Of a stretch of DNA of 21,125 bases, positions 3,248 to 15,786 are shown piece by piece. The translations under genes and the position numbers were made by a program. The stretch comes from a virus: IMG/VR virus record IMGVR_UViG_3300009285_010696, positions 1 to 21,125 of that record; one strand, given 5' to 3'. Under the pieces are notes generated by a model that worked only from the letters and a program-made list of their open reading frames with translations, was not told where the DNA came from and searched no databases. Every line of letters begins with the position of its first letter. The first letter of the stretch is position 1.

Positions 3248-3795
3248 CGCAGCGCGCCGTCGCGATTGTGACTATGCAACGTGGCGCCAAGTCCTCGTAA
3301 CGATGTCTGTAATAGTGCCAGCCGTAACGCCATACTCAAGCCCCAATGCCTTCGCGTTTCCGCCCTGCCAGGCCGATAGCGCTTTCTGATTTCACTCACT
3401 TGTTTTGCGATTAACCGCGCGCTTCCGTGTCGTTCACCGGCGGCCGGTCTCTTCCGGCCCTTCGCGGTCATGTCGCGGACATTGTCTTTCTGCGTGCCTA
3501 GAAACAGATGGTCTGGCCGAACGCAGGCTTGATTGTCGCAACGATGAAGGACCTTCGTCCCTTTCGGGATCGATCCATTCGTCAGCTCCCACGATACGTG
3601 ATGGCAGAAAGCCATTCTTCGCGTGCCATCTGTGCGGCTGCCGACAGAAAAGCACCCGTAGCTCTTCCCGCTGCGCGATCTGAAGAACCCCGCCGTCCAC
3701 ACCCAACACGAAGTCCGATCCTTGACGATCGAGACCTTCGACCAGAATCGCTCAGCAAGCGAAGAGCGGGATCTTGGAGAGGTCGGGATAGTCAT
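3244..3795 (-). CDS. HNH homing-type endonuclease with frameshifted C-terminal helix-turn-helix
   Basis: The N-terminal half shows the phage HNH_3 pattern: AERFWSKV near residue 14, WVW near 31, then HHVSWELTNGSIPKGTKVLH and RCDNQACVRPDHLFLGT, with metal/catalytic candidates H84, C86, C91 and H96. Free-standing enzymes of this type cut DNA and spread between phage genomes. After KQVSEIRKRY (residues 131-140) the family normally continues into a small DNA-binding helix-turn-helix. That continuation (AKALGLEYGVTAGTITDIV, then TWRHVA and a stop at 3272-3274) is present but in another frame. A single-base loss near 3361-3372, beside a GGG run, explains this. The listed frame uses the shifted end and stops at 3244. 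The first 44 bases overlap the aminotransferase gene. Confidence 0.8.
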   Translation of the reverse strand: MTIPTSPRSRSSLAERFWSKVSIVKDRTSCWVWTAGFFRSRSGKSYGCFSVGSRTDGTRRMAFCHHVSWELTNGSIPKGTKVLHRCDNQACVRPDHLFLGTQKDNVRDMTAKGRKRPAAGERHGSARLIAKQVSEIRKRYRPGRAETRRHWGLSMALRLALLQTSLRGLGATLHSHNRDGALR

Positions 3796-4360
3796 CGTTG
3801 GGCAAGTCCAGATTCGTCCTCGGAAGCAATGATAGCCGAACTAGGCCCTGCGCCGCAATTTCCGGTGACATATATGCGTGCCATCCGGCCATGTCGAACG
3901 TGTCGTCTTTCGGGTGCACGCCCTCGGTGCGGCCGTCGAACCGCGCCCTGCGGAACCACTTATCGGCCTTGGCATTGTCATGCAGAATGCAGCCGCCCTG
4001 CTGAATGCCGAGCACCTTCGACCAGTGGTGCGAGGTGCACATGAAGGTGCCGGAATCGTACATGGTAGCGGTGAAGCGGCGCGCCGCGTCCCACACCGGC
4101 AACGGCGCGAGCTGATAGACGCCGCTCCAAGCCTCGTCGCGGAATTTCACCTTGGTGCCAGCGTGCAGAATCTGCATCGGCACGCTCACGTAGGTGCGCT
4201 TTGGAATCTCGATCGCCGCCGGCAGCCGGCCGCTCGCCTTGTGCCACATCAAACAGAGAAAAAGTGCGTTGGTACAAGAGTTTACGGCGACCGCGTAGGG
4301 GGCGCCGGTATAGGCGGCGACGGCAGACTCGAAGTCGCGGACGACCTGGTAAGGGTTCAT
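3752..4360 (-). CDS. Half-length DegT/PseC-like sugar aminotransferase
   Basis: A 202-residue PLP-dependent aminotransferase-like protein. Full-length DegT/DnrJ/EryC1 enzymes have about 370-400 residues. Features in order: YTGAPYAVAVNSCTNALFLCL (cofactor-binding loop, residues 17-37), IPKRTYVSVPMQILHAGTKV (53-71), VWDAARRF (89-96, with the Asp expected to face the pyridine nitrogen) and TSHHWSKVLGIQQGGCIL (109-126), where K115 is the candidate Schiff-base lysine. The C-terminal domain is largely absent. The start overlaps the PseB stop by ATGA, which supports the PseC step: amination of the UDP-4-keto sugar made by PseB. Whether the short form is active, or is a naturally compact phage version, cannot be told from sequence. 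Confidence 0.7.
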   Translation of the reverse strand: MNPYQVVRDFESAVAAYTGAPYAVAVNSCTNALFLCLMWHKASGRLPAAIEIPKRTYVSVPMQILHAGTKVKFRDEAWSGVYQLAPLPVWDAARRFTATMYDSGTFMCTSHHWSKVLGIQQGGCILHDNAKADKWFRRARFDGRTEGVHPKDDTFDMAGWHAYMSPEIAAQGLVRLSLLPRTNLDLPNDDYPDLSKIPLFAC

Positions 4361-5214
4361 GCCGCCAAGGCCTCGCGCAGGTCGTCGACGCTCAATCGCC
4401 GCGCCTTATCGCTAGTGTTTCCGTCCGCCATGCCCTCATGCAATTTCTCGTAGGTGGGCAGCCCGCGCACGTCCATTTCGACACCCATGGCAAGGGCAAG
4501 ATCGCCCAGGCGATAGGCCGGCAAGGTCGGAATCACGAACTCGCCGCCCTTCATGGTCTTGATCGTGTCGATGACGAGATCGATCGCCTCGTCCATCGTC
4601 ATGAAGAAGCGCGTGCAATCTGGATCGCTGATCGGCACATGCGGCGCGCCGGCGGCGAGGAGCGCGCGCCAGGTCGGCACCACCGAGCCAGCCGAGTTCC
4701 AGACGTTGCCGTAACGTGTAACGGCGAAGCGTGGACCGCTCTCGCCTGTCGTGTTGTTGGCGTTCAAGAACAGCATCTCTGCCAAGGCTTTCGACTGCCC
4801 GTAGGGGCTGATCGGCTGCCAGGCCTTATCGGTCGAGAGCGCCACCACCTTGCGCACGCCGGCGTCCTGGGCGGCCTCGATCACGTTCATGGCGCCGATG
4901 ATGTTGGTCTTCACCATCTCCGCAGGATTGTAGTGGCCGACCTCGATCCGCTTCAGCGCGGCCGCGTGCACTACGACGTCGACACCTTCGAAGGCGCGGC
5001 GGAGGCGATCGCGATCGCGCACATCGCCGATGAAAAAGCGAATGGTATCGGCCGAACTTCTGTACCTTTCGTACAATTCGGCGGCCATGGCCGCCTGCGC
5101 GTGCTCGCCGCGCGAGAACACGATAACGCGCTCGGCTTCCCAGATTAACAGAAGCCGGCGCACGAAGGCGCGCCCAAACGAACCGGTCCCGCCGGTGATC
5201 AGGATGGAGCGCAT
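4357..5214 (-). CDS. pseB: UDP-GlcNAc 4,6-dehydratase (PseB-like)
   Basis: A short-chain dehydrogenase of 285 residues, catalysing the first step of pseudaminic acid synthesis: UDP-GlcNAc to the 4-keto-6-deoxy sugar, NADP-dependent, in the cytoplasm. Seen: the nucleotide-binding TGGTGSFG (7-14), GDVRDRDRL (63-71), the family hallmark AALKRIEVGHYNPAEMVKTN (85-104), STDKA with D129/K130, and YGQSK with Y138 and K142. D129, K130 and Y138 keep the spacing of the FlaA1 residues D132, K133 and Y141. YGNVWNSAGSVVP and SDPDCTRFFMT follow. The ATG at 5214 is chosen because MRSILITGG is the normal start; the frame is open further upstream but that part overlaps the neighbour. The C-terminus is somewhat short (PseB about 330). 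Confidence 0.88.
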   Translation of the reverse strand: MRSILITGGTGSFGRAFVRRLLLIWEAERVIVFSRGEHAQAAMAAELYERYRSSADTIRFFIGDVRDRDRLRRAFEGVDVVVHAAALKRIEVGHYNPAEMVKTNIIGAMNVIEAAQDAGVRKVVALSTDKAWQPISPYGQSKALAEMLFLNANNTTGESGPRFAVTRYGNVWNSAGSVVPTWRALLAAGAPHVPISDPDCTRFFMTMDEAIDLVIDTIKTMKGGEFVIPTLPAYRLGDLALAMGVEMDVRGLPTYEKLHEGMADGNTSDKARRLSVDDLREALAA

Positions 5215-5621
5215 AGCAATCGTTTGGCCTTGGAAAGCGAGATCAGCCTGCCGTAGAGCGGGGACGACAGGCGCCGGGCGACCTCGAATTTGTGGTACTC
5301 GAAGAGGCTGCGAAAGCCGCGTACCGGCTGGTTTATGCCGGGCTGGCGGGCCCACCAATCGAGCTCGGCGCGGTGCGCCGGGACCTCCTCGGCGAGCCGG
5401 AATTCCGGGTCCTCGAGATAGCGCCGCCACCACGCCTCGACCCGGTCGCCCTGGCGGTCCATGTGCACGGCCTCGTGCAGCATGATGGCATCTGGAATGG
5501 GCACGCCGGCCGGGTTGTAGATCGTCCCGCCGAAGGTAAAAAAAACGGCCCGATCGCGAACGAGCGGAAAGGCTGTCACGACCGCGTCGAAGTTCGGCGG
5601 CAGCGCGTGAACGATTTTCAA
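5199..5621 (-). CDS. Putative zinc-peptidase-like phage protein (HExxH)
   Basis: A 140-residue protein with LHEAVHMDRQ at residues 48-57. HEAVH fits the zinc-metallopeptidase HExxH motif. Downstream acidic residues in AEEVPAHRAELDWW (77-90) could supply the third ligand. No signal peptide or membrane segment is seen. The start is TTG at 5621 (TTG AAA ATC) with AGG upstream. It ends 16 bases inside the pseB gene. Known proteins of this general shape occur as short uncharacterised phage proteins. The substrate is unknown and catalysis is not proven by the motif alone. Confidence 0.6.
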   Translation of the reverse strand: MKIVHALPPNFDAVVTAFPLVRDRAVFFTFGGTIYNPAGVPIPDAIMLHEAVHMDRQGDRVEAWWRRYLEDPEFRLAEEVPAHRAELDWWARQPGINQPVRGFRSLFEYHKFEVARRLSSPLYGRLISLSKAKRLLCAPS

Positions 5622-5630
5622 AGCATCGAC

Positions 5631-5750
5631 CTATTTAACGCCGGGTATCCTGCGCGACGGCGGCCACGGTGGGCTTTCCCCGGCGGCCCCTCTTTTCATG
5701 GCCGCCACAAGTGCCTCGCCGCAGCGGACGGCCTTCTCTTCGAGGTGCAT
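5631..5750 (-). CDS. Possible 39-residue peptide gene
   Basis: An ATG at 5750, four bases after the pseI stop, opens MHLEEKAVRCGEALVAAMKR, followed by a Gly/Pro/Arg-rich end (PPWPPSRR) and a stop at 5631. It fills the only gap between pseI and the HExxH gene. The ribosome-binding site is weak. No family is recognised; it could be non-coding spacer. Confidence 0.35.
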   Translation of the reverse strand: MHLEEKAVRCGEALVAAMKRGAAGESPPWPPSRRIPGVK

Positions 5751-5754
5751 TCCA

Positions 5755-6741
5755 TTACACGACAAGTTCGAAACTCATGGGCGTGCCGCGCGCGATCGCG
5801 ACCTTGGCGGTGCGGCAGAGCAACTCGGGCAAATGCTTGGGCGCGAGACCATGGCCAGGCCTGATCGATCGCACGTCCTCCTCGGATATCCGTGCGCCCT
5901 GAGCGATATTCCGCACGGCGTAGAGCGAGCGTCGGAGCGCCCGATAGGGCTCGACGGGGCGGGCGATTTGCATGGCCTCATAAGCCTCGCGCACACCCTC
6001 TGCCATCAGACGGAATTCCCCGGGTTCGAGCGAGAAAGAGGCGTCCGGCCCGCCGTCGGCGCGGTTGAGCGTCAGATGCTTCTCGATCATGGTGGCGCCC
6101 AGCGCCGCGGCCGCGATCGGCACCGCGATTCCCAGCGTATGATCGGAGAGCCCGACCGGCAGGCGGAAGCGCTCACGCAGCGCCGCCATGCGCTTCAGAT
6201 TCGCCTCGGCAGCCTTCGCGGGATAGGCGGAGACGCAGTGCAATAACGTAACGTGCTTGGAGCGAGACGCCGCATTGATGGCGTCGGCGATCTCCGAATC
6301 CGAGGCCATGCCGGTCGAAAGAATCAGGGGCTTTCGTGTCGCGGCAGCGCGCTTTATCAGCGCCAGGTCGGTGAGCTCGAAGGAGGCGATCTTGAAAGCC
6401 GGCGCGCCGAGGCGCTCCAACAGGGCAACGGCCTCCTCATCGAACGGGCTGGAGAAGCATTCGATGCCGACGGACTGCGCGTACTCGAACAGCTTCGGAT
6501 GCCAGTCCCAGGGCGTGGCGGCGTCCTTGTAGAGGTCGAAAAGCTTGCGGCCATGCCATGGACCGCCGTCGATGACGAAGCCGGGCCCATCAAGGTCAAG
6601 CGTGAGGCGCTCGGGCCGGTAGGTCTGGAATTTGACGGCGTCGGCGCCGGCGCTCTTCGCCGCCGAGATCAGCTTGAGCGCGTTCTTGAGGTCGCCGCGA
6701 TGGTTGCCGCTAATCTCCGCAATTATGCGCGGGTACGTCAC
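5755..6741 (-). CDS. pseI: Pseudaminic acid synthase (PseI, NeuB family)
   Basis: The 328-residue enzyme condenses phosphoenolpyruvate with a 6-deoxy-2,4-diacetamido hexose to make the nine-carbon nonulosonic acid. Residues 1-260 are the TIM-barrel synthase domain: IIAEISGNHRGD (6-17), DAVKFQTYRPE (34-44), KLFDLYKDAATPWDWH (66-81), SSPFDE, KIASFELTD (117-125), HCVSAYPA (168-175), GLSDHTLG (197-204) and GGPDASFSLEPGEF (230-243). The SAYPA and GGPDxSFSLEP forms point to PseI rather than sialic acid synthase NeuB. Residues 272-322 are the C-terminal SAF (antifreeze-like) domain. The start matches the family N-terminus and overlaps the end of the HNH gene by 32 bases. Confidence 0.92.
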   Translation of the reverse strand: MTYPRIIAEISGNHRGDLKNALKLISAAKSAGADAVKFQTYRPERLTLDLDGPGFVIDGGPWHGRKLFDLYKDAATPWDWHPKLFEYAQSVGIECFSSPFDEEAVALLERLGAPAFKIASFELTDLALIKRAAATRKPLILSTGMASDSEIADAINAASRSKHVTLLHCVSAYPAKAAEANLKRMAALRERFRLPVGLSDHTLGIAVPIAAAALGATMIEKHLTLNRADGGPDASFSLEPGEFRLMAEGVREAYEAMQIARPVEPYRALRRSLYAVRNIAQGARISEEDVRSIRPGHGLAPKHLPELLCRTAKVAIARGTPMSFELVV

Positions 6742-7204
6742 GAAGCCGCGCCTTTCTTTCTCGCTCCCAGCGAGCGTGGCACAGACGACAGATGCGCTTG
6801 TTGTGCCACCTGTAGGTATTGGCCTTGTTGAACGGATGTCCGTGCATGCAATGCGTCTTGTTTCTCCACCAGCCCTTGGAGGCGACCTTCGCGCGCCCCT
6901 TGGCCTTCGTGTCGCGATTGCTGTCTCCTCGCGTACCCAAGAAAAGATGGCTTGGCCTCACGCAGCCCGGGTTGTCGCATCTGTGGAGGACGCAAGTGCC
7001 TCGGTGCCGGTCGACATCTTTGGGTAAATTGCCGAAATGAATTTTCCACGAGACCCGATGTGCGGTTGTCCGTGGCTCGCCCCTGCCGAGCTGCACAATT
7101 CCGTACCCGTAAGGATCCTTCCTCCCAAGCCACGGCCAGCAACCTTTGCAAAGCCGAACGCGAGCCCAAAAGAACTCTTCCAGTGATTTCCGTCTCATCG
7201 CCAT
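6710..7204 (-). CDS. HNH homing-type endonuclease with C-terminal Cys/His motif
   Basis: A 164-residue protein: EEFFWARVR near residue 9, CWPWLGRKDPYGYG (22-35), AHRVSWKIHFGNLP (48-61) and VLHRCDNPGCVRPSHLFLGT (72-91), the HNH core with H74, C76, C81 and H86. A second Cys/His unit follows (THCMHGHPFNKANTYRWHNK, then RICRLCHARW), common in phage HNH proteins. It sits between the acetyltransferase and pseI, and its last 32 bases overlap the pseI start, as expected for an endonuclease gene dropped at a gene border. It is related to, but not a copy of, the HNH protein at 3244-3795. Confidence 0.85.
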   Translation of the reverse strand: MAMRRKSLEEFFWARVRLCKGCWPWLGRKDPYGYGIVQLGRGEPRTTAHRVSWKIHFGNLPKDVDRHRGTCVLHRCDNPGCVRPSHLFLGTRGDSNRDTKAKGRAKVASKGWWRNKTHCMHGHPFNKANTYRWHNKRICRLCHARWERERKARLRDVPAHNCGD

Positions 7205-7225
7205 ACGGCGACGATAGCCTGATTC

Positions 7226-7648
7226 TCATTGTCCGGACAACTCGTAGGTCACTTGCACCAGCTTAAAGCCGCGGTCGCTGAAGAAGCGATGCGAGCGGCC
7301 ATTGCCGGGCGCGACATTGGCGAGGAGCCGCCCGGGATGCAGCGCGTTCAACCTCCGGAGCGCAGCCTTGCCGTAGCCCATGGCCTGATAGCGCTTGAAG
7401 ATGAACAGGCCGACTTCCCGCGCCTTGGTGAGGTAGATCGCGCCCACGATCTTCGGCGCTGCGTTCATGTTGGTGTTATCGACGATCAGATACCAGGCCT
7501 GATAGGGCTTGCTCGCGACGAAGGCGCAGTGCTCGTCGAAGCTCGGCATAGCCTTGTGCGAGATGTTCTGCTCGGGATTGCGCTCTGCCAATAATTCGTA
7601 GAGTACGCGCGCGGCTTCGGGCGATGCGTAGACGTCGATGAGTTTCAT
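7226..7648 (-). CDS. GNAT acetyltransferase, candidate PseH-step enzyme
   Basis: A 140-residue GNAT-fold protein: NISHKAMPSFDEHCAFVASK near 30-50, AWYLIVDN, KIVGAIYLTKAREVGLFIFK, then the acetyl-CoA loop QAMGYGKAAL and NVAPGNGRSHRFFSDRGFKLV. The last block (asparagine-containing, residues near 110-130) is typical of GNAT enzymes acting on nucleotide sugars. In a Pse cluster it would acetylate the 4-amino group of the UDP sugar. This assignment is from context; PseH proper is only distantly similar. The start at 7648 overlaps the upstream stop by ATGA; an alternative ATG lies two codons upstream. Confidence 0.75.
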   Translation of the reverse strand: MKLIDVYASPEAARVLYELLAERNPEQNISHKAMPSFDEHCAFVASKPYQAWYLIVDNTNMNAAPKIVGAIYLTKAREVGLFIFKRYQAMGYGKAALRRLNALHPGRLLANVAPGNGRSHRFFSDRGFKLVQVTYELSGQ

Positions 7649-7950
7649 GACCACACTAACTCTTCAGCCAGAATAGTGATTTGCGAATCGTGCATGCGCC
7701 CGAGCATTTGCTGCAATTCGAACGGGACATGAAAAATAGCGATCGGCTTCGCGTTTTCGCCGATATCCTTGTGCCCGCAATCAATGTCCCGCTGGGCGGC
7801 CGCGAGCGCATCGGTTTCGCTTTCGAAACGTCCCTCGATCGGATGCAGCAACGTCCACTCCACGCCATCAGGAAAGAAAGAACCGCCGCGCTTAACACTC
7901 TCGACGAGCGCGCCCCAATATCCTTTCGCCAGTTCGTCGTTGAAACTCAT
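7645..7950 (-). CDS. Hypothetical protein, 101 residues
   Basis: It starts MSFNDELAKGYWGALVESVK at 7950, immediately after the stop of the transposon-disrupted gene (TGA then ATG, one base between), and ends in an ATGA overlap with the acetyltransferase. Further text: FFPDGVEWTLLHPIEGRFES, then a segment on a buried-looking amphipathic helix ending HDSQITILAEELVWS. No signal or membrane segment is seen. Function unknown; its coupling on both sides suggests it belongs to the operon. Confidence 0.6.
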   Translation of the reverse strand: MSFNDELAKGYWGALVESVKRGGSFFPDGVEWTLLHPIEGRFESETDALAAAQRDIDCGHKDIGENAKPIAIFHVPFELQQMLGRMHDSQITILAEELVWS

Positions 7951-7951: not shown

Positions 7952-8320
7952 TCATTCGTACTTGGCCTTGAGGCGCGCATACTGAGCGCGTTCCTCAATT
8001 TCGCGCTTTCGTTCTCCCGCCTCAAAAATCCTGGCGCTCTCGGCCAAGTAAAGACGTTGATGTTCTGCCTTCGCTTCGTCGAGCCACGGAATGCCGCCCG
8101 TGTAATTGTCTAGGCCGTCGATGAAGATATCGAAGTCCGCTTCCTTGATCGAAACGATGCGCAGGGATCGGCAGTCGTCATAATTATCGAAGAGTTCAAA
8201 GCCTATGCCATATCGCTCGCACAAGGCCCGCAACTCGTGCCTAAAGCGGTCGAGCTCAGCGCATTTGACGCGAGTTGAACCATAGCCAAAGGAGTATCCG
8301 GCATTAGGTAGCAAATGCAC
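7952..8320 (-). pseudogene. Operon gene split by the IS1595-family transposon
   Basis: The part from 8290 to 7952 codes for SFGYGSTRVKCAELDRFRHE onward to KAKYE. The listed frame opens with a GTG inside the transposon end and reads through the terminal repeat (HLLPNAG) and the target duplication. Removing the transposon and one duplication joins 11433-11410 to 8290: the gene then starts ATG ACT GAT CAC GTC, with its ATG overlapping the methylase stop (ATGA). The intact product would be about 121 residues and charged, with a basic helical C-terminus. Function unknown. A protein from the transposon-borne GTG is possible but not shown. Confidence 0.8.
8291..8298. repeat. Target-site duplication, left copy
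   Basis: GGAGTATC, identical to 11410-11417. The length of 8 bp is that known for the IS1595 family. Confidence 0.9.
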
Positions 8321-8328
8321 CTAGTGCC
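8299..8328. repeat. Left terminal inverted repeat
   Basis: It begins CGGCATTAGGTAGC and is itself an imperfect palindrome (GGCATTAGGT at one end, ACCTAGTGCC at the other). It matches the reverse complement of 11380-11409 with two mismatches. It supplies a GTG that extends the disrupted phage frame. Confidence 0.9.
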
Positions 8329-8360
8329 GGGAAAGAAATCCGGTGGAAAAGCTTGTCGGC

Positions 8361-9344
8361 TTAAGTGTTCTCGTCGCTTTGATCTGGCTCATCGACACTC
8401 TCACCGGGCCGTCTACTGCCTTGGCTGCTATATTCGAGCCTGAACGACTCGATCTCGCTGTCCCACAGCATCAAAAAATGGTGCGAGAGCCATGCGTCTG
8501 CGGGATCTTGGTATTCGATGAGGAAGTTGAGCGCGAGCGAGTAGGTGATAGGGCCTACACGACCAGAAGTGACTTCGACGGTCCGGGGCTCACTTTTCGA
8601 GAGTGGCTTACCGGGCGGCACGATGTCGTACCAACGATCACCGGGCATCTCAATCGGTGGCGCGGGTCGTCCGTTTCGCCAGCGCACATCGTCAAAGGGC
8701 AGAAGCTCGATACTGAGGCGACGTACTATCGCTGGCGTTTTACCGTAATTGGCGAACGTGTAACGGAGAAAGGGGGCCTGATTTGGGGCTATCTTCCCTC
8801 TCAGCCCTCCAGTCGATTCAAAGACAATAAAAAGGTAGGGCCGCTCAAGTCGGCTGAAGGATTGTTCCGCCAAGTCGGCCTGTCGCTTAGCTTCCTTGGT
8901 CGCCTCGATAGCAGCGGAAGTGGCCTTCTCACCCTCGGCGACCATATCCCTCGCCGCGTCGGCGGCGCGGCGGGTGTGAACCAACGTATGATAGATAAGA
9001 AGGACGCCAGCGGCGGTAAGCACGACGCTGGCAACCGCCGCAATGAACAACCACTTAGCCCAATGGGCCATCTCCTCTTGGGCGCGAAGATCGCTCTTAG
9101 CGCGATCTTCTTCGTCGGGGGATTTTGGCTTGTCTATATTAGCTTCAAGCACGCGGGTGACGCGCTCGATCTCGTTCTTGATGGCTTCAAGTATCAGTGG
9201 GGTGTTGTCGGCTTTTGGTTGTTCTTGAGCTTGGCCGGTGCGGGCTTGGCCTCCGGAGTCGTCACCTATTGGTTGAGCATATACGGCCCCAGCTAAGGCG
9301 AGTCCGACAGCCGCAACGATTGGCAACCAATAGCTACGAGACAT
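8361..9344 (-). CDS. Transposon passenger: exported or membrane-anchored coiled-coil protein
   Basis: A 327-residue protein. Residues 1-23 (MSRSYWLPIVAAVGLALAGA, ending VYA) look like a cleavable signal peptide. Residues 97-121 (KWLFIAAVASVVLTAAGVLL and onward) form a clear transmembrane helix. Residues 123-165 are Ala/Glu/Lys-rich and likely coiled coil (RRAADAARDMVAEGEKATSA). The rest is a beta-rich domain (RPYLFIVFES, YTFANYGKTPAIVRRLSIEL). Its 5' end overlaps the DUF6471 gene by 52 bases. An antisense frame of similar length exists but lacks such organisation. Known only as an uncharacterised type of protein; why a transposon carries it is unknown. Confidence 0.8.
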   Translation of the reverse strand: MSRSYWLPIVAAVGLALAGAVYAQPIGDDSGGQARTGQAQEQPKADNTPLILEAIKNEIERVTRVLEANIDKPKSPDEEDRAKSDLRAQEEMAHWAKWLFIAAVASVVLTAAGVLLIYHTLVHTRRAADAARDMVAEGEKATSAAIEATKEAKRQADLAEQSFSRLERPYLFIVFESTGGLRGKIAPNQAPFLRYTFANYGKTPAIVRRLSIELLPFDDVRWRNGRPAPPIEMPGDRWYDIVPPGKPLSKSEPRTVEVTSGRVGPITYSLALNFLIEYQDPADAWLSHHFLMLWDSEIESFRLEYSSQGSRRPGESVDEPDQSDENT

Positions 9345-9526
9345 TGGATAAAAAACACTGCGGTGAATCCGCCTCGGCTGATCTTATTCGCGATGTTTCG
9401 TTCCGTCTCAGGGATTCCGATCGCCGTCAGTTTCTCAGCCAGCTCCCGATAGCTCATGTTTCGGCGCTTCAGTTCAGCTTTCAGGAGACCTTTGGTCCGC
9501 TCCTGCCATTGGGGGTCAGTAGGCAT
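9293..9526 (-). CDS. DUF6471-type small helix-turn-helix-like protein
   Basis: A 77-residue protein: WQERTKGLLKAELKRRNMSY, then RELAEKLTAIGIPETERNIA and NKISRGGFTAVFFIQCLVAI. This is the pattern of the DUF6471 family, whose alternating helices resemble a Cro/XRE-type DNA-binding fold. It is transcribed divergently from the transposase, and the space between holds repeated operator-like sites, so an autoregulatory repressor role is a fair inference, not shown. It is encoded inside the transposon. Confidence 0.8.
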   Translation of the reverse strand: MPTDPQWQERTKGLLKAELKRRNMSYRELAEKLTAIGIPETERNIANKISRGGFTAVFFIQCLVAIGCQSLRLSDSP

Positions 9527-9554
9527 CTGGATACCCTACATCTAGTGTTGAATA

Positions 9555-9570
9555 TCACCATATCCGATGT
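9555..9570 (+). promoter_or_regulatory. Operator-like repeat, copy A
   Basis: TCACCATATCCGATGT. It covers the -10 region of the leftward promoter and lies just upstream of the rightward -35. It is identical to the complement of copy C and differs from copy B at two positions. Confidence 0.65.
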
Positions 9571-9585
9571 AATTACCATTGACAA
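9557..9585 (-). promoter_or_regulatory. Leftward sigma-70-like promoter for the DUF6471 gene
   Basis: On the minus strand: TTGTCA (9585-9580), 17-base spacer, TATGGT (9562-9557). The -10 is only a moderate match. It lies about 30 bases upstream of the DUF6471 start and overlaps operator copy A. Confidence 0.5.
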
Positions 9586-9607
9586 TGGGGTGCCGTGTCA
9601 CTATATT
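9579..9607 (+). promoter_or_regulatory. Rightward sigma-70-like promoter for the transposase
   Basis: TTGACA (9579-9584), 17-base spacer, TATATT (9602-9607): a near-consensus promoter. Transcription would start near 9614, about 23 bases before the transposase ATG at 9637. Operator copy B covers the -10. Confidence 0.75.
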
Positions 9608-9613
9608 CGATGT
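9598..9613 (+). promoter_or_regulatory. Operator-like repeat, copy B
   Basis: TCACTATATTCGATGT, two differences from copy A. It covers the -10 and expected start point of the transposase promoter. The two differences create the TATATT -10. Confidence 0.6.
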
Positions 9614-9617
9614 ATTA

Positions 9618-9633
9618 ACATCGGATATGGTGA
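9618..9633 (-). promoter_or_regulatory. Operator-like repeat, copy C (inverted)
   Basis: ACATCGGATATGGTGA on plus, the exact reverse complement of copy A. It occupies the space just before the transposase ATG, where the ribosome-binding site would be, and no separate strong Shine-Dalgarno is seen. Confidence 0.6.
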
Positions 9634-9636
9634 CAA

Positions 9637-10596
9637 ATGGCACAGCATTTCCTTCTCTCCGCCAAGGCCCGGACCCTCTCTCTCCGCGAGATTTACGCGG
9701 CGGGTGAGGACAAGGCTTACGAGACATTTTGCAAGCTGCGCTGGCAGGAAACGGACGGCGACCCGGTCTGCCCGCATTGCGGCGACCTAGACCATTACAA
9801 GATCACCACGCGCCGCCGCTTCAAGTGCGCCGGGTGCGGCAAGCAGTATTCGGTAACGAGCGGAACCATCTTCGCCTCGCGCAAGATGAGCTTCACCGAT
9901 TTGCTCGCGGCGATTTGCATCATCGCGAACGCGGCCAAGGGCGTTTCTGCGTTGCAGCTTTCGCGTGACCTACAATGCCAGCACAAGACGGCTTTCGTTC
10001 TCGCACACAAGCTCCGCGAAGCGATGGCAGCGGAAACAAAGGGCACGACGCTCACGGGCGACGTTGAAATCGATGGCGCATTTTTCGGAGGTACGATCCG
10101 GCCCGCGAACCTGAAGGCTGATCGGATTGATCGTCGCCTCGCTCGCTATCAGACCGGCAAGCGCCGTGTCGTGATTGCGCTCCGCCAGCGCAAGGGCCGC
10201 ACGCTCTCGTTTGTTTCGACGGACGAAGGCGACGGCGTTGAAATCGCAAAGCAGGTTGTCGCCCGCGATGCTGTCATTCACGCAGACGAAGCCTCACACT
10301 GGGATGGATTGCACAATGGCTGGAAAACGCAGCGGATCAATCACAGCGAGGCGTACAGCCTTGATGGCACTTGCACGAACCAGGCTGAAAGCTATTTCGC
10401 GCGGCTTCGTCGCATGGTGCGCGGCCAGCATCACCACGTTTCGCCGCGCTATCTTCATCAGTACGCCGCGCATGCGGCTTGGATCGAAGATCACCGCCGT
10501 CTCGATAACGGCGCGCTCGCAAACCGTGCCCTTGGCCTCGCGCTCGGGCACAAGCCGAGCCGGAATTGGTCGGGCTACTGGCAACGGAGCGCCTGA
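9637..10596 (+). CDS. IS1595-family transposase (ISXO2-like DDE domain)
   Basis: A 319-residue transposase. An N-terminal zinc ribbon has C45, C48, C64 and C67 (CPHCGDLDHYKI, then FKCAGCGKQYS). A helix-turn-helix region follows (NAAKGVSALQLSRDLQCQHK, 98-117). The catalytic domain has EIDGAFFGG (D146), IHADEASHWDGL (D217) and TNQAESYFARLRRMVRGQHH (N248/E251), the order expected of this family. It catalyses cut-and-paste or replicative movement of the element through its terminal repeats. It starts 23 bases after the expected transcription start and is followed 2 bases later by a companion gene. Confidence 0.93.
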   Translation: MAQHFLLSAKARTLSLREIYAAGEDKAYETFCKLRWQETDGDPVCPHCGDLDHYKITTRRRFKCAGCGKQYSVTSGTIFASRKMSFTDLLAAICIIANAAKGVSALQLSRDLQCQHKTAFVLAHKLREAMAAETKGTTLTGDVEIDGAFFGGTIRPANLKADRIDRRLARYQTGKRRVVIALRQRKGRTLSFVSTDEGDGVEIAKQVVARDAVIHADEASHWDGLHNGWKTQRINHSEAYSLDGTCTNQAESYFARLRRMVRGQHHHVSPRYLHQYAAHAAWIEDHRRLDNGALANRALGLALGHKPSRNWSGYWQRSA

Positions 10597-10598
10597 CC

Positions 10599-11024
10599 AT
10601 GGCCGACTCTCATCTTGTCAGTACGCTTAGGAACAAACGCGATGATATCGAGCGGATCATTGCCGCCTATCAGAAGAAAATCGAGCGCGCTCGCCGTGAC
10701 CTAGCGAACGTCAACGCCACGCTGCGGTTATTCGAGGCACCGGAAGGGCGCACCCAGTTCCCGGTTTACATGGACACGCTGCGGCTTTTCCGACGTGGCG
10801 AGATAGTCATCATCTGCAAAGCCGCGCTCGCTAAGGAAGGCCCGCTGGATACGCGAGAATTGGCCTTGCGCGTCATCAAGGCTAAGCGGCTAGATACGAA
10901 AGACACCGTGCTCCGCACGTCCATCGCTTTCCGAATTGTTCAAGCCATGAGGCTGCAAGCCCACCGGGGGAAGGTCGAAGCCTTAGACAAACGGAAAGGC
11001 GTCAGAATGTGGCGCTGTCGATAA
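10599..11024 (+). CDS. Transposase-linked coiled-coil protein
   Basis: The 141-residue product starts MADSHLVSTLRNKRDDIERI, two bases after the transposase stop. Residues 5-45 form a likely coiled coil (YQKKIERARRDLANVNATLR). The second half, KAALAKEGPLDTRELALRVI onward to RIVQAMRLQAHRGKVEAL, reads like a winged-helix DNA-binding unit. The frame is open 11 codons further upstream but that stretch overlaps the transposase. It is probably an accessory protein of the element; function unknown. Confidence 0.75.
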   Translation: MADSHLVSTLRNKRDDIERIIAAYQKKIERARRDLANVNATLRLFEAPEGRTQFPVYMDTLRLFRRGEIVIICKAALAKEGPLDTRELALRVIKAKRLDTKDTVLRTSIAFRIVQAMRLQAHRGKVEALDKRKGVRMWRCR

Positions 11025-11110
11025 TTTGCCTTCTAGTAGGGCGTGCAGTACAATGCAACCTACACGTTAAACGAGTCTTGCGAGGACTCCCTAAAAGTTG
11101 TAACCGGAAC

Positions 11111-11139
11111 AAAGAAAAGGGCGGCCGGATTGGCCGCCC
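11111..11139 (-). terminator. Intrinsic terminator of the tRNA gene
   Basis: On the minus strand: GGGCGGCC, loop AATCC, GGCCGCCC, then TTTTCTTT. It is an eight-pair G/C stem with a U-rich tail, 19 bases beyond the tRNA 3' end, so it closes a short tRNA transcript inside the transposon. Confidence 0.85.
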
Positions 11140-11158
11140 AGAGGAGTGATTGGCGGAG

Positions 11159-11231
11159 CGCGCACGGCAGGATTCGAACCTGCAACCAGGGCTTACGAGG
11201 CACCCGCTCTATCCAGTTGAGCCACGTGCGC
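11159..11231 (-). tRNA. tRNA, anticodon CGT (threonine) by position
   Basis: A complete cloverleaf is readable: acceptor GCGCACG paired with CGTGCGC (seven pairs), D arm GCTC/GAGC with loop AACTGGATA, anticodon loop CTCGTAA, T arm GCAGG-TTCGAAT-CCTGC. The anticodon stem GGTGC/GCCCT has one T-C mismatch and one G-T pair. U33 precedes anticodon CGT (reads ACG, Thr). Pairs 1-72 G-C and 2-71 C-G also fit threonine. The D arm looks more like tRNA-Arg, so identity is not certain. The CCA end is not encoded. It is followed by its own terminator and lies inside the transposon. Confidence 0.85.
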
Positions 11232-11275
11232 ACCCCGCCCCTTTCGTGAGCCGGTTTATCCGGTCCCACGGTGAT

Positions 11276-11297
11276 CGACCCGCCAAACGGCGGGTCG
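11276..11297. other. Nine-pair hairpin between tRNA and transposon end
   Basis: CGACCCGCC, loop AAAC, GGCGGGTCG. It lacks a T-run on either strand, so it is not a standard terminator. The rest of 11232-11379 holds a further small GGGGG/CCCCC hairpin near 11348-11361 and no gene that I can support. The region may include the tRNA promoter, which I could not identify. Confidence 0.5.
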
Positions 11298-11379
11298 AAT
11301 CACATCGGGGACGATACGCCCATATTTCAATTCTGATAGCAGCTTTCGGGGGTTATCCCCCTACTCACGATTCAATAGT

Positions 11380-11409
11380 GGCAATTGGTGCATTTGCTAC
11401 CTAATGCCG
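11380..11409. repeat. Right terminal inverted repeat
   Basis: It reads, from the outer end inward on the minus strand, CGGCATTAGGTAGCAAATGC and onward, matching the left end at 28 of 30 positions. Confidence 0.9.
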
Positions 11410-11417
11410 GGAGTATC
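11410..11417. repeat. Target-site duplication, right copy
   Basis: GGAGTATC, identical to 8291-8298. It belongs to the 5' coding part of the disrupted gene. Confidence 0.9.
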
Positions 11418-11429: not shown

Positions 11430-12068
11430 TCATCGCTTTTCCAACACCCACCAGGTGAGATCGTCCAAGCCCGTCATCCGCTGCCACGCGAAGCCGGCAG
11501 CGATCGGCTTCAGGTCGGGGAAATTGTCGAGCCAGAAGGAACCGAAGTCCCGCGTCCACAGCCGGTCGTTCTCGCCGCGATAGGGCACCATACGCGGCTC
11601 AGCGGAGAAGTATTCGATACAAACGATGTAACGTGACGAGTGACGGTGGATGTTGCGGCAGAATTCGAGCAGATGATCGGGATGGATATGGATCAACACG
11701 CCGCTCGTGAAGATCAGATCGAAGGTGCCAGTCATGTCGCGAATGTCTTGATAGGCGAACTCGACCAGCCCATCAGCGAAAAGACGGCTTAGTGCCGTTT
11801 GGTTCGGCTCGACCGCGAAGAAGCGCGCGTCGTCCCCCAACCAAGGATTGATATAGAAACTCGGGACTTGCTGCATGGCGCGCAGATTGATGCCGACATT
11901 GGCACCGACCTCGGCGATCGAGCGAAGCGGGTGTTTCGTGTGGACAAGGATATCTGCCCATAGATGAATCCGCGCCTTCAGCGCTTCCAGCGTGATCGCG
12001 TTGCGCTCGGTGTAGCGATCGCCGCCGGCGCCCTTCCAGAATGCGACCTGGTCGTTTCCCAAAATCAC
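11430..12068 (-). CDS. Pseudaminic acid biosynthesis-associated methylase
   Basis: A 212-residue class I SAM-dependent methyltransferase. FWKGAGGDRYTERN (10-23) and the glycine motif IAEVGANVGINLRAM (51-65) are typical of the methylase family named for its presence in Pse clusters. FFAVEPNQTALSRL, DLIFTSGVLIHIHPDHL and the C-terminal TWWVLEKR follow. It would methylate a sugar or its substituent, but the exact acceptor is not established for this protein. The start is 6 bases after the preceding stop. Its stop overlaps the true ATG of the next gene (ATGA), which the transposon has since split. Confidence 0.85.
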   Translation of the reverse strand: MILGNDQVAFWKGAGGDRYTERNAITLEALKARIHLWADILVHTKHPLRSIAEVGANVGINLRAMQQVPSFYINPWLGDDARFFAVEPNQTALSRLFADGLVEFAYQDIRDMTGTFDLIFTSGVLIHIHPDHLLEFCRNIHRHSSRYIVCIEYFSAEPRMVPYRGENDRLWTRDFGSFWLDNFPDLKPIAAGFAWQRMTGLDDLTWWVLEKR

Positions 12069-12074
12069 CTCGTT

Positions 12075-12266
12075 TTATGCAGAAGCTATATCTTCGTGTC
12101 TTTCCAAGCGCTTAATGGCAGCAGCCATCGCGAAGTGCCGCCCCTCGTCCCGGCCATTCCCGCGCTCGCGCGCCATGGCGCCGCGTCGGCGGTGCCATTC
12201 GGCCACGGCTTTGAGGACCTTGGGATGGGCGTCGGCAGATATCGGCGGCAGCGGGACACGCTTCAC
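12075..12266 (-). CDS. Small basic hypothetical protein, 63 residues
   Basis: A GTG start at 12266 overlaps the preceding stop (GTGA). The sequence begins MKRVPLPPISADAHPKVLKA and continues AVAEWHRRRGAMARERGNGR, then a helical end (MAAAIKRLERHEDIASA). It is rich in Arg/His/Ala. No family is recognised. Coupling to genes on both sides supports its being real. Confidence 0.55.
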   Translation of the reverse strand: MKRVPLPPISADAHPKVLKAVAEWHRRRGAMARERGNGRDEGRHFAMAAAIKRLERHEDIASA

Positions 12267-12433
12267 GTGCCGGCGTTCGGACAGATGACCACGACATCGT
12301 TCGTGGTCGGTGATCTCGCGACTACGCGACCCGCCTCGATCGACAGCTTCCAGCCCTCGCCGTCCGGCAATTCGGCCACGAACCTCATGCCTTCACGGCG
12401 CTGAATGCCGGCTGGAACATGGATAGTCCTCAC
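12263..12433 (-). CDS. Small hypothetical protein, 56 residues
   Basis: A GTG start overlaps the cytidylyltransferase stop (GTGA), and its own stop overlaps the next GTG (GTGA). The product reads MRTIHVPAGIQRREGMRFVA, then ELPDGEGWKLSIEAGRVVAR and a short beta-type end (SPTTNDVVVICPNAGT). It looks like a compact beta-barrel or sheet. Function unknown. Confidence 0.5.
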   Translation of the reverse strand: MRTIHVPAGIQRREGMRFVAELPDGEGWKLSIEAGRVVARSPTTNDVVVICPNAGT

Positions 12434-13137
12434 GCCGCTCGCCTCCGGTCATTGATGTTCACAAGTTCGGGCCGCTCGGCCAAGATGGCAAGCACGTCGT
12501 CCATGCCGCCTGGCTCACGCACGGCATGCAGCGCCCGCAGGAATTCAAGGTCCTCGGGGTAATCGAGCGTCCAGCGCAACCGCGCGAGATCGAACCGGCC
12601 GGAGGCGAGATTGACGCGCCGAGCATTGCGCACCATCCAAGGAGTCACGTGCTCGCGATCGTAGGGATCGGTCGCCTGCGTATGCGCTTTTTCGAGCGCG
12701 TCCATCGTGAACACTTCGCAGTCGAGGCCGCGCGGAAAGGAACGAGGCCACACATTGCTCGCGTAGTCGGCCTTCTCGCGACGGCGAAGGTCGATGATGC
12801 GTTCGCAGATTTCCGGGTCGATCAGCGGGCAATCGGCGGTGATGCGCACGATCACGCTGGCGCTGGCGCCGACGGCGGCTCGATAGTAGCGCGTGAGCAC
12901 GTCGTCTTCCGGCGTCCAGCCGATCCACACCACGAACCCGTGGCACCGGGCGATCGGTGCCATGGTGAAGGCGTCCTGGCCCACTCCGGGCACGGCGAGG
13001 ATGTATTCCCCGGCCGATATCTTCCTTGAGCGCTCAAGCACGCGGTCGAGCACGGTAGTGCCGGCGAGATCGGCCATGACCTTTCCGGGCAGGCGGGTCG
13101 ATCCCAGCCTTGCCTGGACGATCACGGCGGTGGTCAC
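12430..13137 (-). CDS. CMP-sugar synthetase-like cytidylyltransferase (SpsF/PseF type)
   Basis: A 235-residue nucleotidyltransferase of the acylneuraminate cytidylyltransferase family. The signature IVQARLGSTRLPGKVMADLA (6-25) is the nucleotide-binding loop. GWTPEDDVLTRYYRA, VIVRITADCPLIDPE and PRGLDCEVFTMDALEKA follow, then RWTLDYPEDLEFLRAL. In this setting it would activate the nonulosonic acid as its CMP derivative (PseF step). The sequence is of SpsF type, which is less specific, so the substrate is inferred from the cluster. The GTG start at 13137 overlaps the stop of the 55-residue gene (GTGA). Confidence 0.8.
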   Translation of the reverse strand: MTTAVIVQARLGSTRLPGKVMADLAGTTVLDRVLERSRKISAGEYILAVPGVGQDAFTMAPIARCHGFVVWIGWTPEDDVLTRYYRAAVGASASVIVRITADCPLIDPEICERIIDLRRREKADYASNVWPRSFPRGLDCEVFTMDALEKAHTQATDPYDREHVTPWMVRNARRVNLASGRFDLARLRWTLDYPEDLEFLRALHAVREPGGMDDVLAILAERPELVNINDRRRAA

Positions 13138-13301
13138 TGTTGCCGCATACCAAACGTATGGCGCTCGTAAGATTCAAGGCGCTCTGCAATAGCGGTCTTT
13201 TCATCCGGCGTAAGATTCGGGTCGTTCATGGCATCGGCTGCTACTTTGCGTGCTCTGGCGACAAGTGCAGCCCTGATCCGCGCATCTTGTTCTGGTGTCA
13301 T
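13134..13301 (-). CDS. Small helical hypothetical protein, 55 residues
   Basis: The product reads MTPEQDARIRAALVARARKV, then AADAMNDPNLTPDEKTAIAE and RLESYERHTFGMRQQ. It is all-helical in character and strongly charged. Its stop overlaps the GTG of the cytidylyltransferase (GTGA). Its ATG is overlapped by a seven-codon frame (MNRIDAA) starting right at the stop of the 84-residue gene, which may couple translation. No family is recognised. Confidence 0.55.
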   Translation of the reverse strand: MTPEQDARIRAALVARARKVAADAMNDPNLTPDEKTAIAERLESYERHTFGMRQQ

Positions 13302-13317
13302 GCTGCGTCGATGCGGT

Positions 13318-13572
13318 TCATCTTGGAGTAGGCGGCTCAGGCAGCGGCCTCCAATGCGTCGGCGTTTTGTCGTTCAACATACTAAGGCTGCCGTACACAA
13401 ACCAATACTCTCGATAATAGGTGCGCACGCCGTGCGATAGGGATTCCGATTTCTCGTAGCGCCCAATCTGAACCGGCTGTTTGTATTCGTGGAAATATAG
13501 AAGGACAGTTGTACCGTCCTTTGGTGCCGTATCGATTGATCGCCAAACATGCGAAAAATGCGCGCCGGGCAC
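13318..13572 (-). CDS. DUF551-like phage protein
   Basis: An 84-residue product with HVWRSIDTAPKDGTTVLLYF (9-28) and the ending THWRPLPEPPTPR. The W...APKDGTxVLL and HWxPLPEPP blocks are the recurring pattern of small phage DUF551-type proteins, whose role is unknown. The GTG start is uncertain. It lies 42 bases after the Tat-like gene. Confidence 0.65.
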   Translation of the reverse strand: MPGAHFSHVWRSIDTAPKDGTTVLLYFHEYKQPVQIGRYEKSESLSHGVRTYYREYWFVYGSLSMLNDKTPTHWRPLPEPPTPR

Positions 13573-13614
13573 GAAACCATAACAGGATTATCTTCCTTGC
13601 CCATGTCGTGATCC

Positions 13615-13905
13615 TCAGTGGAGCTCGGCCGTAAATACAACCAGCCACATCTGGCTATCGGCCCTATAATTTGTTTCGCACCGGAGCCGTCTCATTTCGG
13701 TGTAGCCGTCGGCCTCCATCCGCTGCTGAAACGAGCGCATCGAGGCGGGGACGATCTCATTCATGGCCTCAAGATCGAGCTTATCGACCCATTGGACAAC
13801 GTAGTATGTGATCCCCTCACGCTGCGTCGGCAAGAACTTGGAAAATGCAAAGACCGCTACGGACAGCGCCGCAGCGCCGGTGAATAGTCCGCGTCGTGTG
13901 ATCAT
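13615..13905 (-). CDS. Small exported protein with twin-arginine-like start
   Basis: A 96-residue product. Residues 1-25 (MITRRGLFTGAAALSVAVFA and onward) carry a TRRGLF motif and hydrophobic stretch, like a Tat or lipoprotein-type signal. The mature part has GITYYVVQWVDKLDLEAMNE, a helical middle (SMRSFQQRMEADGYTEMRRL) and a beta end (SQMWLVVFTAELH). Its start overlaps the HisF-like stop (ATGA). Its layout is similar to the plus-strand protein at 427-657. Function unknown. Confidence 0.65.
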   Translation of the reverse strand: MITRRGLFTGAAALSVAVFAFSKFLPTQREGITYYVVQWVDKLDLEAMNEIVPASMRSFQQRMEADGYTEMRRLRCETNYRADSQMWLVVFTAELH

Positions 13906-14651
13906 GCCGCCACTCTCATGTTGAAGCCCTTGTCCGCGAGATAGCGTGCAGCGCCCTTGGGCGTCGCGTCCGTGAACTGGAACATGGCCCCAGCCGCGAC
14001 CGCATGGGCGCCGGCGCGCAAGGCTTCCGCCATGTGCTCGTAGCTGCCACAGCCGCCGGAGGCGACGACGGGGATGCTCACGCTTGCGGCGACCGATTCG
14101 ATCAAGTCAAGGTCGTACCCGTTCATGGTGCCGTCTCTCGACACCGCTGTAAGCAATAGTTCGCCAGCGCCAAGAGACTGCCCGCGGCGTGCGTGATCCA
14201 GCGGGCCAATGCCTGCAAGGAGACGGCCACAGTGAGAGACGACTTCGCCATCAAGAACATCGACAGCGAGTACCACGGCCTGGGAACCGAAACGGTGCGC
14301 GGATTCATGGATCACCTCCGGCCGCTCCAATGCGGCGGTGCAGAGAACCACCTTGTCCGCGCCGTTGGCAAGCAGCGCCCGCACGTCCTCGACATTGCGC
14401 ACGCCGCCGCCGACCGTGAGCGGCATGAAGCATTCGCCAGCGATATCGCGCACAAGCCCTAGATCAGGCCCCCTGCCCTCCACAGTGGCCGTCACATCGA
14501 GCAGGATCAGTTCGTCGACGCCGCGCGCCTCATAGACCCGCGCCGCCTGGCGGACGTGGCCGATGACCCGGCCGTGATCGAAGCGCCTGCCCTTGACGAG
14601 CGTCCCGCGCCGGCTAAGCAGCGTCGGGATGATGCGCGTGGCGATCGTCAT
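13902..14651 (-). CDS. HisF-like glycosyl amidation partner (WbuZ type)
   Basis: A 249-residue TIM barrel of the HisF family: RIIPTLLSRRGTLVKGRRFD (6-25), DELILLDVTAT, ECFMPLTVGGGVRNVEDVRA (73-92), GADKVVLCTAAL, AVDVLDG with D131, and PVVASGGCGSYEHM. True HisF needs two catalytic aspartates. The second (D130 of Thermotoga HisF) is kept as D131, but the first (D11) is leucine here (L12). This, and its position next to the amidotransferase, marks it as the sugar-amidation form that channels ammonia, not a histidine enzyme. It overlaps the pseA end by 38 bases. Confidence 0.85.
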   Translation of the reverse strand: MTIATRIIPTLLSRRGTLVKGRRFDHGRVIGHVRQAARVYEARGVDELILLDVTATVEGRGPDLGLVRDIAGECFMPLTVGGGVRNVEDVRALLANGADKVVLCTAALERPEVIHESAHRFGSQAVVLAVDVLDGEVVSHCGRLLAGIGPLDHARRGQSLGAGELLLTAVSRDGTMNGYDLDLIESVAASVSIPVVASGGCGSYEHMAEALRAGAHAVAAGAMFQFTDATPKGAARYLADKGFNMRVAA

Positions 14652-15786
14652 CCGAAATCCGCACCGGTGTGCCGTCCTGGTCCTTGCGTGGCGCGCCGGG
14701 CCCGAAGCAGGCGAAAATGTCCGGGTTGGTCCAGTGGTTGCAGGCCTGCACGAACTCGTCGACCGTCAGCCCGAAATACGCCAGCACGTCCGCGATCGGC
14801 ATGCCCAGCGAGGTAGCGGGGAAGCGCTCGGCGGCCGCCACCATGGGCGCCGCTTCCGCGCGCGTGAGCCGGCCCCTACGAATGTGATTGCAGGCGATAT
14901 CGGTCGCGCGGCTGTAGCCGTATTTCAGGAAGCGCAGCCAGTCCCGGAGCACGGTGACGTGATTGTCGAGGTTCTCGTAGTTCGCAAGGCTCGTCTCGAC
15001 CGGGTGCGGCAGGAACTCGAAGCCATGCTGTTGTGCGATGAAGCCGTTCTTCCAGCCGTCCCAGTCGAGATAATCGCCGAGCCAGATGCCTTTCACGCCG
15101 GCGCGCTCAAGCGCGTCATCAGGCGGGAAGCGGAACGGCTCAAGGTCGGCAGCCGTCAGGCCATCCTCGCCGATCAGATCGTCGTGGCGCATGCCCAGCA
15201 TGCCGCCGAATTCAGCCACCCAGCGCGCGTTCAATTCCGTCGCCGGCTGCACGCCATCGGGACAGGCGTATTCACGCTGCGGCTGCTCGCCCCAGACGAT
15301 GAGCGGGATGCCCATGGCGGCGGCGATGCGCGTGGGAATCGCCCAGATCGCGCAGTGCTCCGGCCAGCTCATGTCGCCGACGCGGTGCAGGCCGATGCGC
15401 ACCAGTTTCTTGCGGACTTCGACGTTCGGGGTCCATTCGATGACGTCGCAGAAGCGCTTCAAATTGTCGAGGTTACGCCGGCCGATGTCCGAAAGCATGT
15501 CCGCGCCGGCGTTCACGGCGAGCACGCGGGCGCCCAGCTCCTTCAGCTTCAGCACCTGGAACGTGCTGTCCTTGCCGCCGCTCACGGGCACGACGACGTC
15601 GTAGGGCGCGCCGGCGCCGCGAGATCGTTGCCCAGCCGCACCTATCATTGCCTCGAGCAGATCGTTCGCCGCACCCCAATTGAACGTCGCGCGATGATCG
15701 AAGCTGCGGCAGCCGGAGCACACTCCACCGACGAAATGCGTGTCGGGCCGGGTGTCGGGGTAGAGGCAGCGGGCGCAGATTTTCAA
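14614..15786 (-). CDS. pseA: N-acetyl sugar amidotransferase (PseA/WbuX family)
   Basis: A 390-residue PP-loop ATPase that converts an N-acetyl group of a sugar to an acetamidino group. Seen: an N-terminal zinc-type cluster C4, C7, C23 and C26 (CARCLYPDTRPDTHFVGGVC), the ATP-binding PVSGGKDSTFQVLKLKEL (67-84), NAGADMLSDIGRRNLDNLKR, and VWGEQPQREYA. The PP-loop motif SGGKDS is intact. In Campylobacter PseA modifies pseudaminic acid, and hisF/hisH copies lie beside it; in Pseudomonas WbpG works with HisH2/HisF2. Here HisF-like is adjacent but no HisH-like gene is seen. The start is TTG at 15786, overlapping the upstream stop (TTGA). Confidence 0.87.
   Translation of the reverse strand: MKICARCLYPDTRPDTHFVGGVCSGCRSFDHRATFNWGAANDLLEAMIGAAGQRSRGAGAPYDVVVPVSGGKDSTFQVLKLKELGARVLAVNAGADMLSDIGRRNLDNLKRFCDVIEWTPNVEVRKKLVRIGLHRVGDMSWPEHCAIWAIPTRIAAAMGIPLIVWGEQPQREYACPDGVQPATELNARWVAEFGGMLGMRHDDLIGEDGLTAADLEPFRFPPDDALERAGVKGIWLGDYLDWDGWKNGFIAQQHGFEFLPHPVETSLANYENLDNHVTVLRDWLRFLKYGYSRATDIACNHIRRGRLTRAEAAPMVAAAERFPATSLGMPIADVLAYFGLTVDEFVQACNHWTNPDIFACFGPGAPRKDQDGTPVRISDDDRHAHHPDAA

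Follow-up and report, generated by a model that had tools for sequence, protein, structure and literature searches.

The closest described counterparts of the genes discussed here are the pseudaminic acid (Pse) pathway of Helicobacter and Campylobacter, which consists of PseB, PseC, PseH, PseG, PseI and PseF together with PseA, and the acetamidino sets WbpG/HisH2/HisF2 of Pseudomonas aeruginosa and PseA with HisF and HisH of Campylobacter jejuni. Maf and the GT42 enzyme CstII both use cytidine monophosphate (CMP)-nonulosonates, and Maf modifies protein directly; bacterial maf genes are found near the flagellins that Maf modifies. The DNA analysed here (the window) is one complete IMG/VR virus record of 21,125 bp, IMGVR_UViG_3300009285_010696, in which eight sugar genes occupy a single strand (-), flanked by a terL that an intein splits and by the portal gene. 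We consider it fairly probable that this phage makes a CMP-activated derivative of pseudaminic acid, which in its relatives would be attached to a protein, likely one of the virion. Gene content, conservation, folds, key residues and co-occurrence were computed, and from these we infer every enzymatic activity in the cluster, the sugar and its acceptor. The broader proposition, that many phages, almost all of them uncultured, glycosylate a virion protein with a modified pseudaminic acid of their own, using phage-specific CMP-nonulosonate transferases and a pyridoxal phosphate (PLP) aminotransferase of ~200 residues, roughly half as large as is usual for its fold, is in our estimate evenly balanced.

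Like the Helicobacter and Campylobacter pathway, the phage set includes homologues of PseB, PseI and PseA with intact motifs, and its GNAT acetyltransferase and CMP-sugar synthetase would fill the roles of PseH and PseF. It differs in possessing no PseG, in having a half-size DegT-fold protein (mini-PseC) for PseC and an SpsF-like enzyme for PseF, and in being encoded by a phage. As in the P. aeruginosa and C. jejuni sets, a WbuX-type amidotransferase is paired with an adjoining WbuZ-type HisF, but the HisH glutaminase is missing from 47 of 47 phage records. The genes of the cluster and of its flanks are as follows (aa, amino acids).

19086..19706, strand -, terminase small subunit (Terminase_2, E 7e-28)
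16679..19099, strand -, terminase large subunit with intein (Terminase_6C, Terminase_6N, LAGLIDADG_3)
14614..15786, strand -, PseA/WbuX-like N-acetyl sugar amidotransferase (start codon uncertain)
13902..14651, strand -, HisF2/WbuZ-like protein
12430..13137, strand -, SpsF-like CMP-sugar synthetase (putative PseF role)
11430..12068, strand -, Pse-associated methylase
7226..7654, strand -, GNAT acetyltransferase (putative PseH role)
5755..6741, strand -, PseI, putative pseudaminic acid synthase
5199..5621, strand -, 140-aa protein with HExxH-like motif
4357..5214, strand -, PseB, putative uridine diphosphate N-acetylglucosamine (UDP-GlcNAc) 4,6-dehydratase, 285 aa
3752..4360, strand -, mini-PseC, condensed 202-aa DegT-fold aminotransferase
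617..2245, strand -, portal (head-tail connecting protein; Head-tail_con PF12236, E 2.6e-107)

The - strand reads, in order, TerS, TerL with its intein, two small open reading frames (ORFs), PseA/WbuX, HisF/WbuZ, a small ORF, the SpsF-like synthetase and the methylase, followed by a transposon, the GNAT, an HNH gene, PseI, the 140-aa ORF, PseB, mini-PseC, a second HNH gene, three small ORFs and the portal. Family searches found all of the sugar genes named in the initial annotation on this strand between terL and portal, as it had described. The 4-bp overlaps that it reported are present at two junctions (PseB/mini-PseC and HisF/ORF 13615), but the remaining junctions show overlaps of 16-44 bp or gaps, and the 3.1-kb transposon (8299-11409) and the two HNH genes interrupt the operon. 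The start of PseB, previously placed at 5433, was corrected to 5214.

The same gene order from terL to portal was sought in related phages and found complete in contig L048, which was detected in a mini-PseC scan and carries TerL, PseA, HisF, SpsF, the methylase, GNAT, PseI, the 140-aa ORF, PseB, mini-PseC, two small ORFs and the portal. L039, detected in a portal-based scan and with a portal 70% identical to that of the window, begins at PseA and has the same series as far as the portal, followed by scaffold, capsid and a transferase. Because the block recurs in these independent contigs, it is not a host island wrongly joined to phage contigs, the circumstance named at the outset as fatal to a phage pathway. 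The attribution of a pseudaminic-type nonulosonate pathway to the phage stands to that extent; PseG and HisH are absent from it.

PseI passes the curated cut-off of its family (TIGR03586, 430 bits versus 340), and its closest PDB entry is the pseudaminic acid synthase 8h2c (E 6e-83). Phe and Ser at two specificity positions have been reported as Pse-specific for synthases (PMC7371886), and the PseI of the window has both (KIASF, VSAYP). A simple motif count over 65 phage PseI hits gives this pair in 35, the others being mixed, partly through the crudeness of the pattern and partial hits. Curated cut-offs are also passed by PseA/WbuX (TIGR03573, 256 bits versus 203; PDB match 8wex, E 8e-23; PP-loop SGGKDS intact) and by the methylase (TIGR03587, 145 bits versus 112). 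PseB and the HisF-like protein are clear family members that score below the equivalog cut-offs: PseB matches TIGR03589 best, at 315 bits versus 408, with PDB entry 2gn4, a UDP-GlcNAc C6 dehydratase (E 1e-71), and an intact catalytic motif (TDK...Y...K), and the HisF-like protein reaches 253 bits versus 300, with WbuZ as its best family. The latter has lost Asp11 (IIPTLLSRRG), which in true HisF is the first of the catalytic Asp residues, with VLAVD retained; because of this loss and its assignment to WbuZ, a function in histidine synthesis is unlikely, and its sequence suggests an ammonia-channel partner of the amidotransferase. The CMP-sugar synthetase is CTP_transf_3/SpsF-like (CTP_transf_3 E 1.4e-20; cytidylyltransferase PDB 6oew, E 2e-32), SpsF being a putative cytidylyltransferase required for the CMP-legionaminic acid pathway of B. 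subtilis (PMC7439481). The GNAT, a weak Acetyltransf_1 match (E 6e-5), accompanies the cluster in most relatives. The 140-aa HExxH-like protein is kept beside PseI or PseB in L048 (8604-9044) as in L041 (8355-8789), where few other sugar-cluster genes remain.

The transferase, of ~280 aa, is the ninth most frequent family near mini-PseC. In four relatives it had no Pfam family above cut-off, with a weak sub-threshold MptE-like match in one, and it had no PHROG assignment. Its structural model (mean predicted local distance difference test, pLDDT, 80.5, exceeding 90 over most of the core) matches the fold of the flagellin pseudaminyl transferase Maf (5mu5, Z 12.3) and of CstII sialyltransferases (Z ~10, Foldseek E 3.6e-5) over the core (residues 1-170). 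It differs from both in having no Pfam match to either, a long helical tail, and a Ser/Thr-rich phage partner instead of flagellin. The transferase occurs in 32 of 47 long mini-PseC records versus none of 37 random viral records (Fisher p ~1e-11), and a PseI/NeuB homologue in 28 of 46 transferase records versus none of the same 37 (Fisher p ~4e-10); a lysozyme-based control set was dropped because it was too small. Searched as a single sequence, the transferase matched itself only, and the alignment search reached 196 contigs. Nine bacterial genomes with mini-PseC yielded nothing in a transferase search made without a positive control.

The transferase gene of the relatives adjoins those for capsid or terminase and comes immediately downstream of one for a Ser/Thr-rich protein. 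The preceding gene belongs to one Ser/Thr-rich family of ~150 aa in 47 of 96 cases (27% Ser+Thr versus a mean of 14%), and terL follows the transferase in 52 of the 96. In the kin of the window it is preceded by the capsid gene and by a protein with a C-terminal part that resembles this family at the profile level (hhalign 91%). In L039 the Ser/Thr-rich protein is at 14254-14892 and the transferase at 14952-15791; L122 has a transferase at 17930-18817. Since maf genes lie near their flagellin targets, the same logic makes the Ser/Thr-rich neighbour the likely acceptor of the sugar and a candidate virion protein. The window contig ends at the gene after the portal, short of the capsid genes, and for this phage a transferase is predicted from its kin.

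In the scheme that we propose, the pathway would be run late in infection with host UDP-GlcNAc as starting material. PseB would convert this to a 4-keto-6-deoxy sugar, mini-PseC, as a PLP aminotransferase, would aminate C4, and the GNAT would acetylate the aminated sugar. After removal of UDP by a host or unrecognised enzyme (there being no PseG), PseI would join the sugar with phosphoenolpyruvate and the SpsF-like enzyme would form the CMP sugar. PseA and HisF would then change an acetamido to an acetamidino group, with ammonia from a host source in place of HisH. N-methylation of this group by the methylase is probable, with PtmH in Campylobacter as the parallel. PtmH N-methylates the acetimidoyl group of CMP-legionaminic acid, and methylases of the PtmH/ORF8 type act on that group in Campylobacter and Legionella (PMC3766260). 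The most likely product would be a CMP-linked N-methyl-acetamidino pseudaminic acid, which the Maf/CstII-fold transferase of the relatives would attach to a protein; the best candidate is the Ser/Thr-rich virion protein whose gene is just upstream.

Several observations weigh against this scheme. The fold match of the transferase is a distant one (12-20% identity), and the protein also fits folds like those of MptE and thiamine pyrophosphokinase (Z 10-11). Fifteen of the 47 mini-PseC records have no transferase and 18 of the 46 transferase records no PseI, many of them fragments, and the control for these counts, a random 16-mer sample of viral contigs (n=37), is small and not habitat-matched. 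The window itself contains no transferase, the Ser/Thr-rich neighbour is no more than a putative virion protein, and the transposon may cut off the expression of downstream genes in this copy of the phage. Neither PseG nor HisH was found in the window or in any of the 47 relatives of at least ~31 kb, by searches that were positive in control genomes; the pathway is therefore not self-sufficient as far as seen, and the two steps would be supplied either by the host or by unrecognised phage substitutes. A protein of ~110-120 aa recurs in 15 mini-PseC loci (e.g. L068:2777-3100), where read between mini-PseC and the CMP synthetase, and is a candidate for a missing step or a regulator.

The constant absence of PseG and HisH, while PseA, HisF and the methylase are frequent, is what would be expected of a phage that supplements or rewires the Pse pathway of its host, its PseA, HisF and methylase modifying host-made CMP-Pse and PseG and HisH always being host-derived. 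We regard this as possible but rather unlikely, because a phage whose host makes CMP-Pse itself would have no need of PseB, mini-PseC, PseI or the CMP synthetase. It mainly concerns the source of two steps and is compatible with glycosylation of the virion.

Slightly less probable is the use of the CMP-sugar by host transferases on the host surface (lipopolysaccharide, capsule or flagellin), leading to superinfection exclusion or receptor masking. PseI exceeds the cut-off in 50 of 289 sampled genomes of Alphaproteobacteria (the class of an Alphaproteobacteria-labelled metagenome-assembled genome (MAG)), and a host of that kind, if the phage has one, might supply PseG and an acceptor, while the 15 records devoid of the transferase would also be accounted for. 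The sugar genes are, however, part of the packaging/structural operon, with the recognised terL or portal marker on the mini-PseC strand in 29 of the 29 loci having such a marker, and a change of host surface this late would be of little use to a lytic phage. Moreover, the clusters have no recurrent family of flippases, ligases or membrane glycosyltransferases, and most longer records have the dedicated transferase beside capsid genes. Because of this last position, virion decoration, one of the two functions first suggested together with a change of the host surface, is now the better suggestion.

Mini-PseC was initially described as a PseC-like aminotransferase. It does have the DegT fold with the PLP Asp and Lys, but at 202 aa it fails the PseC equivalog (31 bits versus 423, half length), the fold alone being in common. 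DegT/DnrJ/EryC1/StrS aminotransferases such as WbpE, ArnB and PseC share with it the fold, both PLP residues and the S-x-H-x-x-K...GG motif; they are 360-400 residues long, whereas mini-PseC, at ~200, is without the small C-terminal domain and a central stretch. Pfam and NCBIfam align just the first 75 residues to DegT/PseC. The remainder is also conserved, with D91, S110, K115 and RFDxR invariant in an alignment of 55 relatives, and K115 aligns with the Lys of DesI within the S-x-H-x-x-K stretch. The AlphaFold model (pLDDT 97.5) superposes on full-length sugar transaminases over 191 of 202 residues (Z 20, 2.5 Å), the structural matches stopping at about residue 320-390 of the targets and large parts being skipped. 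The family thus retains the PLP core and lacks the central segment and C-terminal domain. A truncated pseudogene, cut for example by the neighbouring HNH gene, was rejected since ~200 aa is the normal length among the 55 aligned relatives.

The loss of the entire C-terminal domain and central segment, with a Pfam alignment covering only 70 residues, might alternatively denote a degenerate, non-catalytic DegT remnant, such as a regulator or scaffold. This we consider doubtful, and more so than the two alternatives above: all 55 of the diverse sequences aligned have the PLP Lys and Asp unchanged, and the 80 neighbourhoods kept contain no recurrent family of full-length DegT aminotransferases. 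An active transaminase is instead suggested by these two residues, by the position in the pathway and by the absence of another recurrent aminotransferase family.

The statement in the initial annotation that phages rarely carry so much of such a pathway is not supported. The mini-PseC profile matched 114 IMG/VR viral contigs, and among the 80 kept for neighbour-gene frequencies the commonest neighbours are PseB, PseA, PseI, the CMP synthetase, the GNAT, HisF and the methylase. These phages are of several kinds, with differing terminases and portals. Uncultivated phages commonly carry the set, but it is almost absent from cultured ones, for which 50,697 records gave seven matches to mini-PseC, none above 60% identity. 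They include the cultured Flavobacterium phages 'immuto', whose sugar cluster encodes a 214-aa homologue, 45% identical; these differ in having several glycosyltransferases and a second full-length aminotransferase, and no PseI is annotated in the stretch read. In a literature search, with subscription journals and preprints outside its coverage, no description of a phage with this pathway came up, and neither the papers found nor the initial annotation remark on the contrast between uncultivated and cultured phages.

Searched against 84,980 genomes of bacteria and archaea, the mini-PseC profile gave ten near-full-length copies; of the five contexts read, two look phage-like (L128, L129) and three are bacterial sugar loci. 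The latter, in Neomarinimicrobiota, Sediminibacterium and Prochlorococcus (L131, L134, L136), are rare occurrences of mini-PseC in polysaccharide-type loci. L129, a phage-like contig in a Sulfuricaulis MAG bin, carries mini-PseC, PseB, PseA, a NeuC/LegG-like hydrolysing epimerase, a NeuB-family synthase, a NeuA-like enzyme, a radical SAM protein and HisF, apparently a different nonulosonate pathway.

In a PseI tree (quick method, weak forks, midpoint root, one bacterial class sampled), the window clusters with L039, L048 and L041, and all 30 alphaproteobacterial sequences form one clade without phage sequences, a pattern that weighs against recent capture from Alphaproteobacteria. That a host sugar island without phage function was joined by misassembly or recent transduction, as the bacterial origin of the pathway and the transposon and tRNA within the block might suggest, deserves almost no credence and is regarded here as already refuted, given the repetition of the block between terL and portal in independent contigs, the position of phage PseI in this tree, and the far greater frequency of mini-PseC in viral contigs than in bacterial genomes.

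The window is rich in homing elements, with the TerL intein and two HNH genes in one operon. The intein (369 aa, 17852-18958, with a LAGLIDADG domain) lies in the Walker A motif (GRGFGK/intein/T). The transposon, of 3,111 bp and the IS1595 family, has an ISXO2-like transposase, the terminal inverted repeat CGGCATTAGGTAGCAAATGCACC and the 8-bp target duplication GGAGTATC at 8291-8298 and 11410-11417; it was not seen at the methylase/GNAT junction in L039 and L048. A tRNA gene inside an IS1595-type element is unusual. The mobile elements and the genes within the transposon are listed below.

8299..11409, strand not assigned, IS1595-family transposon between methylase and GNAT
11158-11231, strand -, tRNA-Thr(CGT), within transposon
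9637-10596, strand +, transposase, within transposon
9293-9526, strand -, DUF6471 gene, within transposon
8361-9344, strand -, membrane protein, within transposon
6710..7204, strand -, HNH homing endonuclease between GNAT and PseI (HNH_3, E 1.5e-8)
3244..3795, strand -, HNH homing endonuclease between mini-PseC and the portal-side genes (HNH_3, E 1.2e-12)

Elsewhere, NusG/RfaH-like phage proteins (PF02357) head a sugar-containing late operon in L342 (1308-1814, strand -) and L029 (644-1273, strand +), and may act as antiterminators for a long late operon.

Taken more widely, the finding is that of a phage nonulosonate module that is widespread, contains a condensed aminotransferase and comes with a dedicated transferase family that had no assignment before; its function is most probably virion glycosylation. 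If this is true, mini-PseC would be an easy marker of the pathway in metagenomes and a test case for the minimum size of a fold-type I PLP enzyme, and the Maf/CstII-like family would be a source of new nonulosonate transferases that are small and soluble. Many environmental phages would bear sialic-acid-like sugars on their particles by means of their own pathway, and this sugar coat could influence adsorption, particle stability or recognition.

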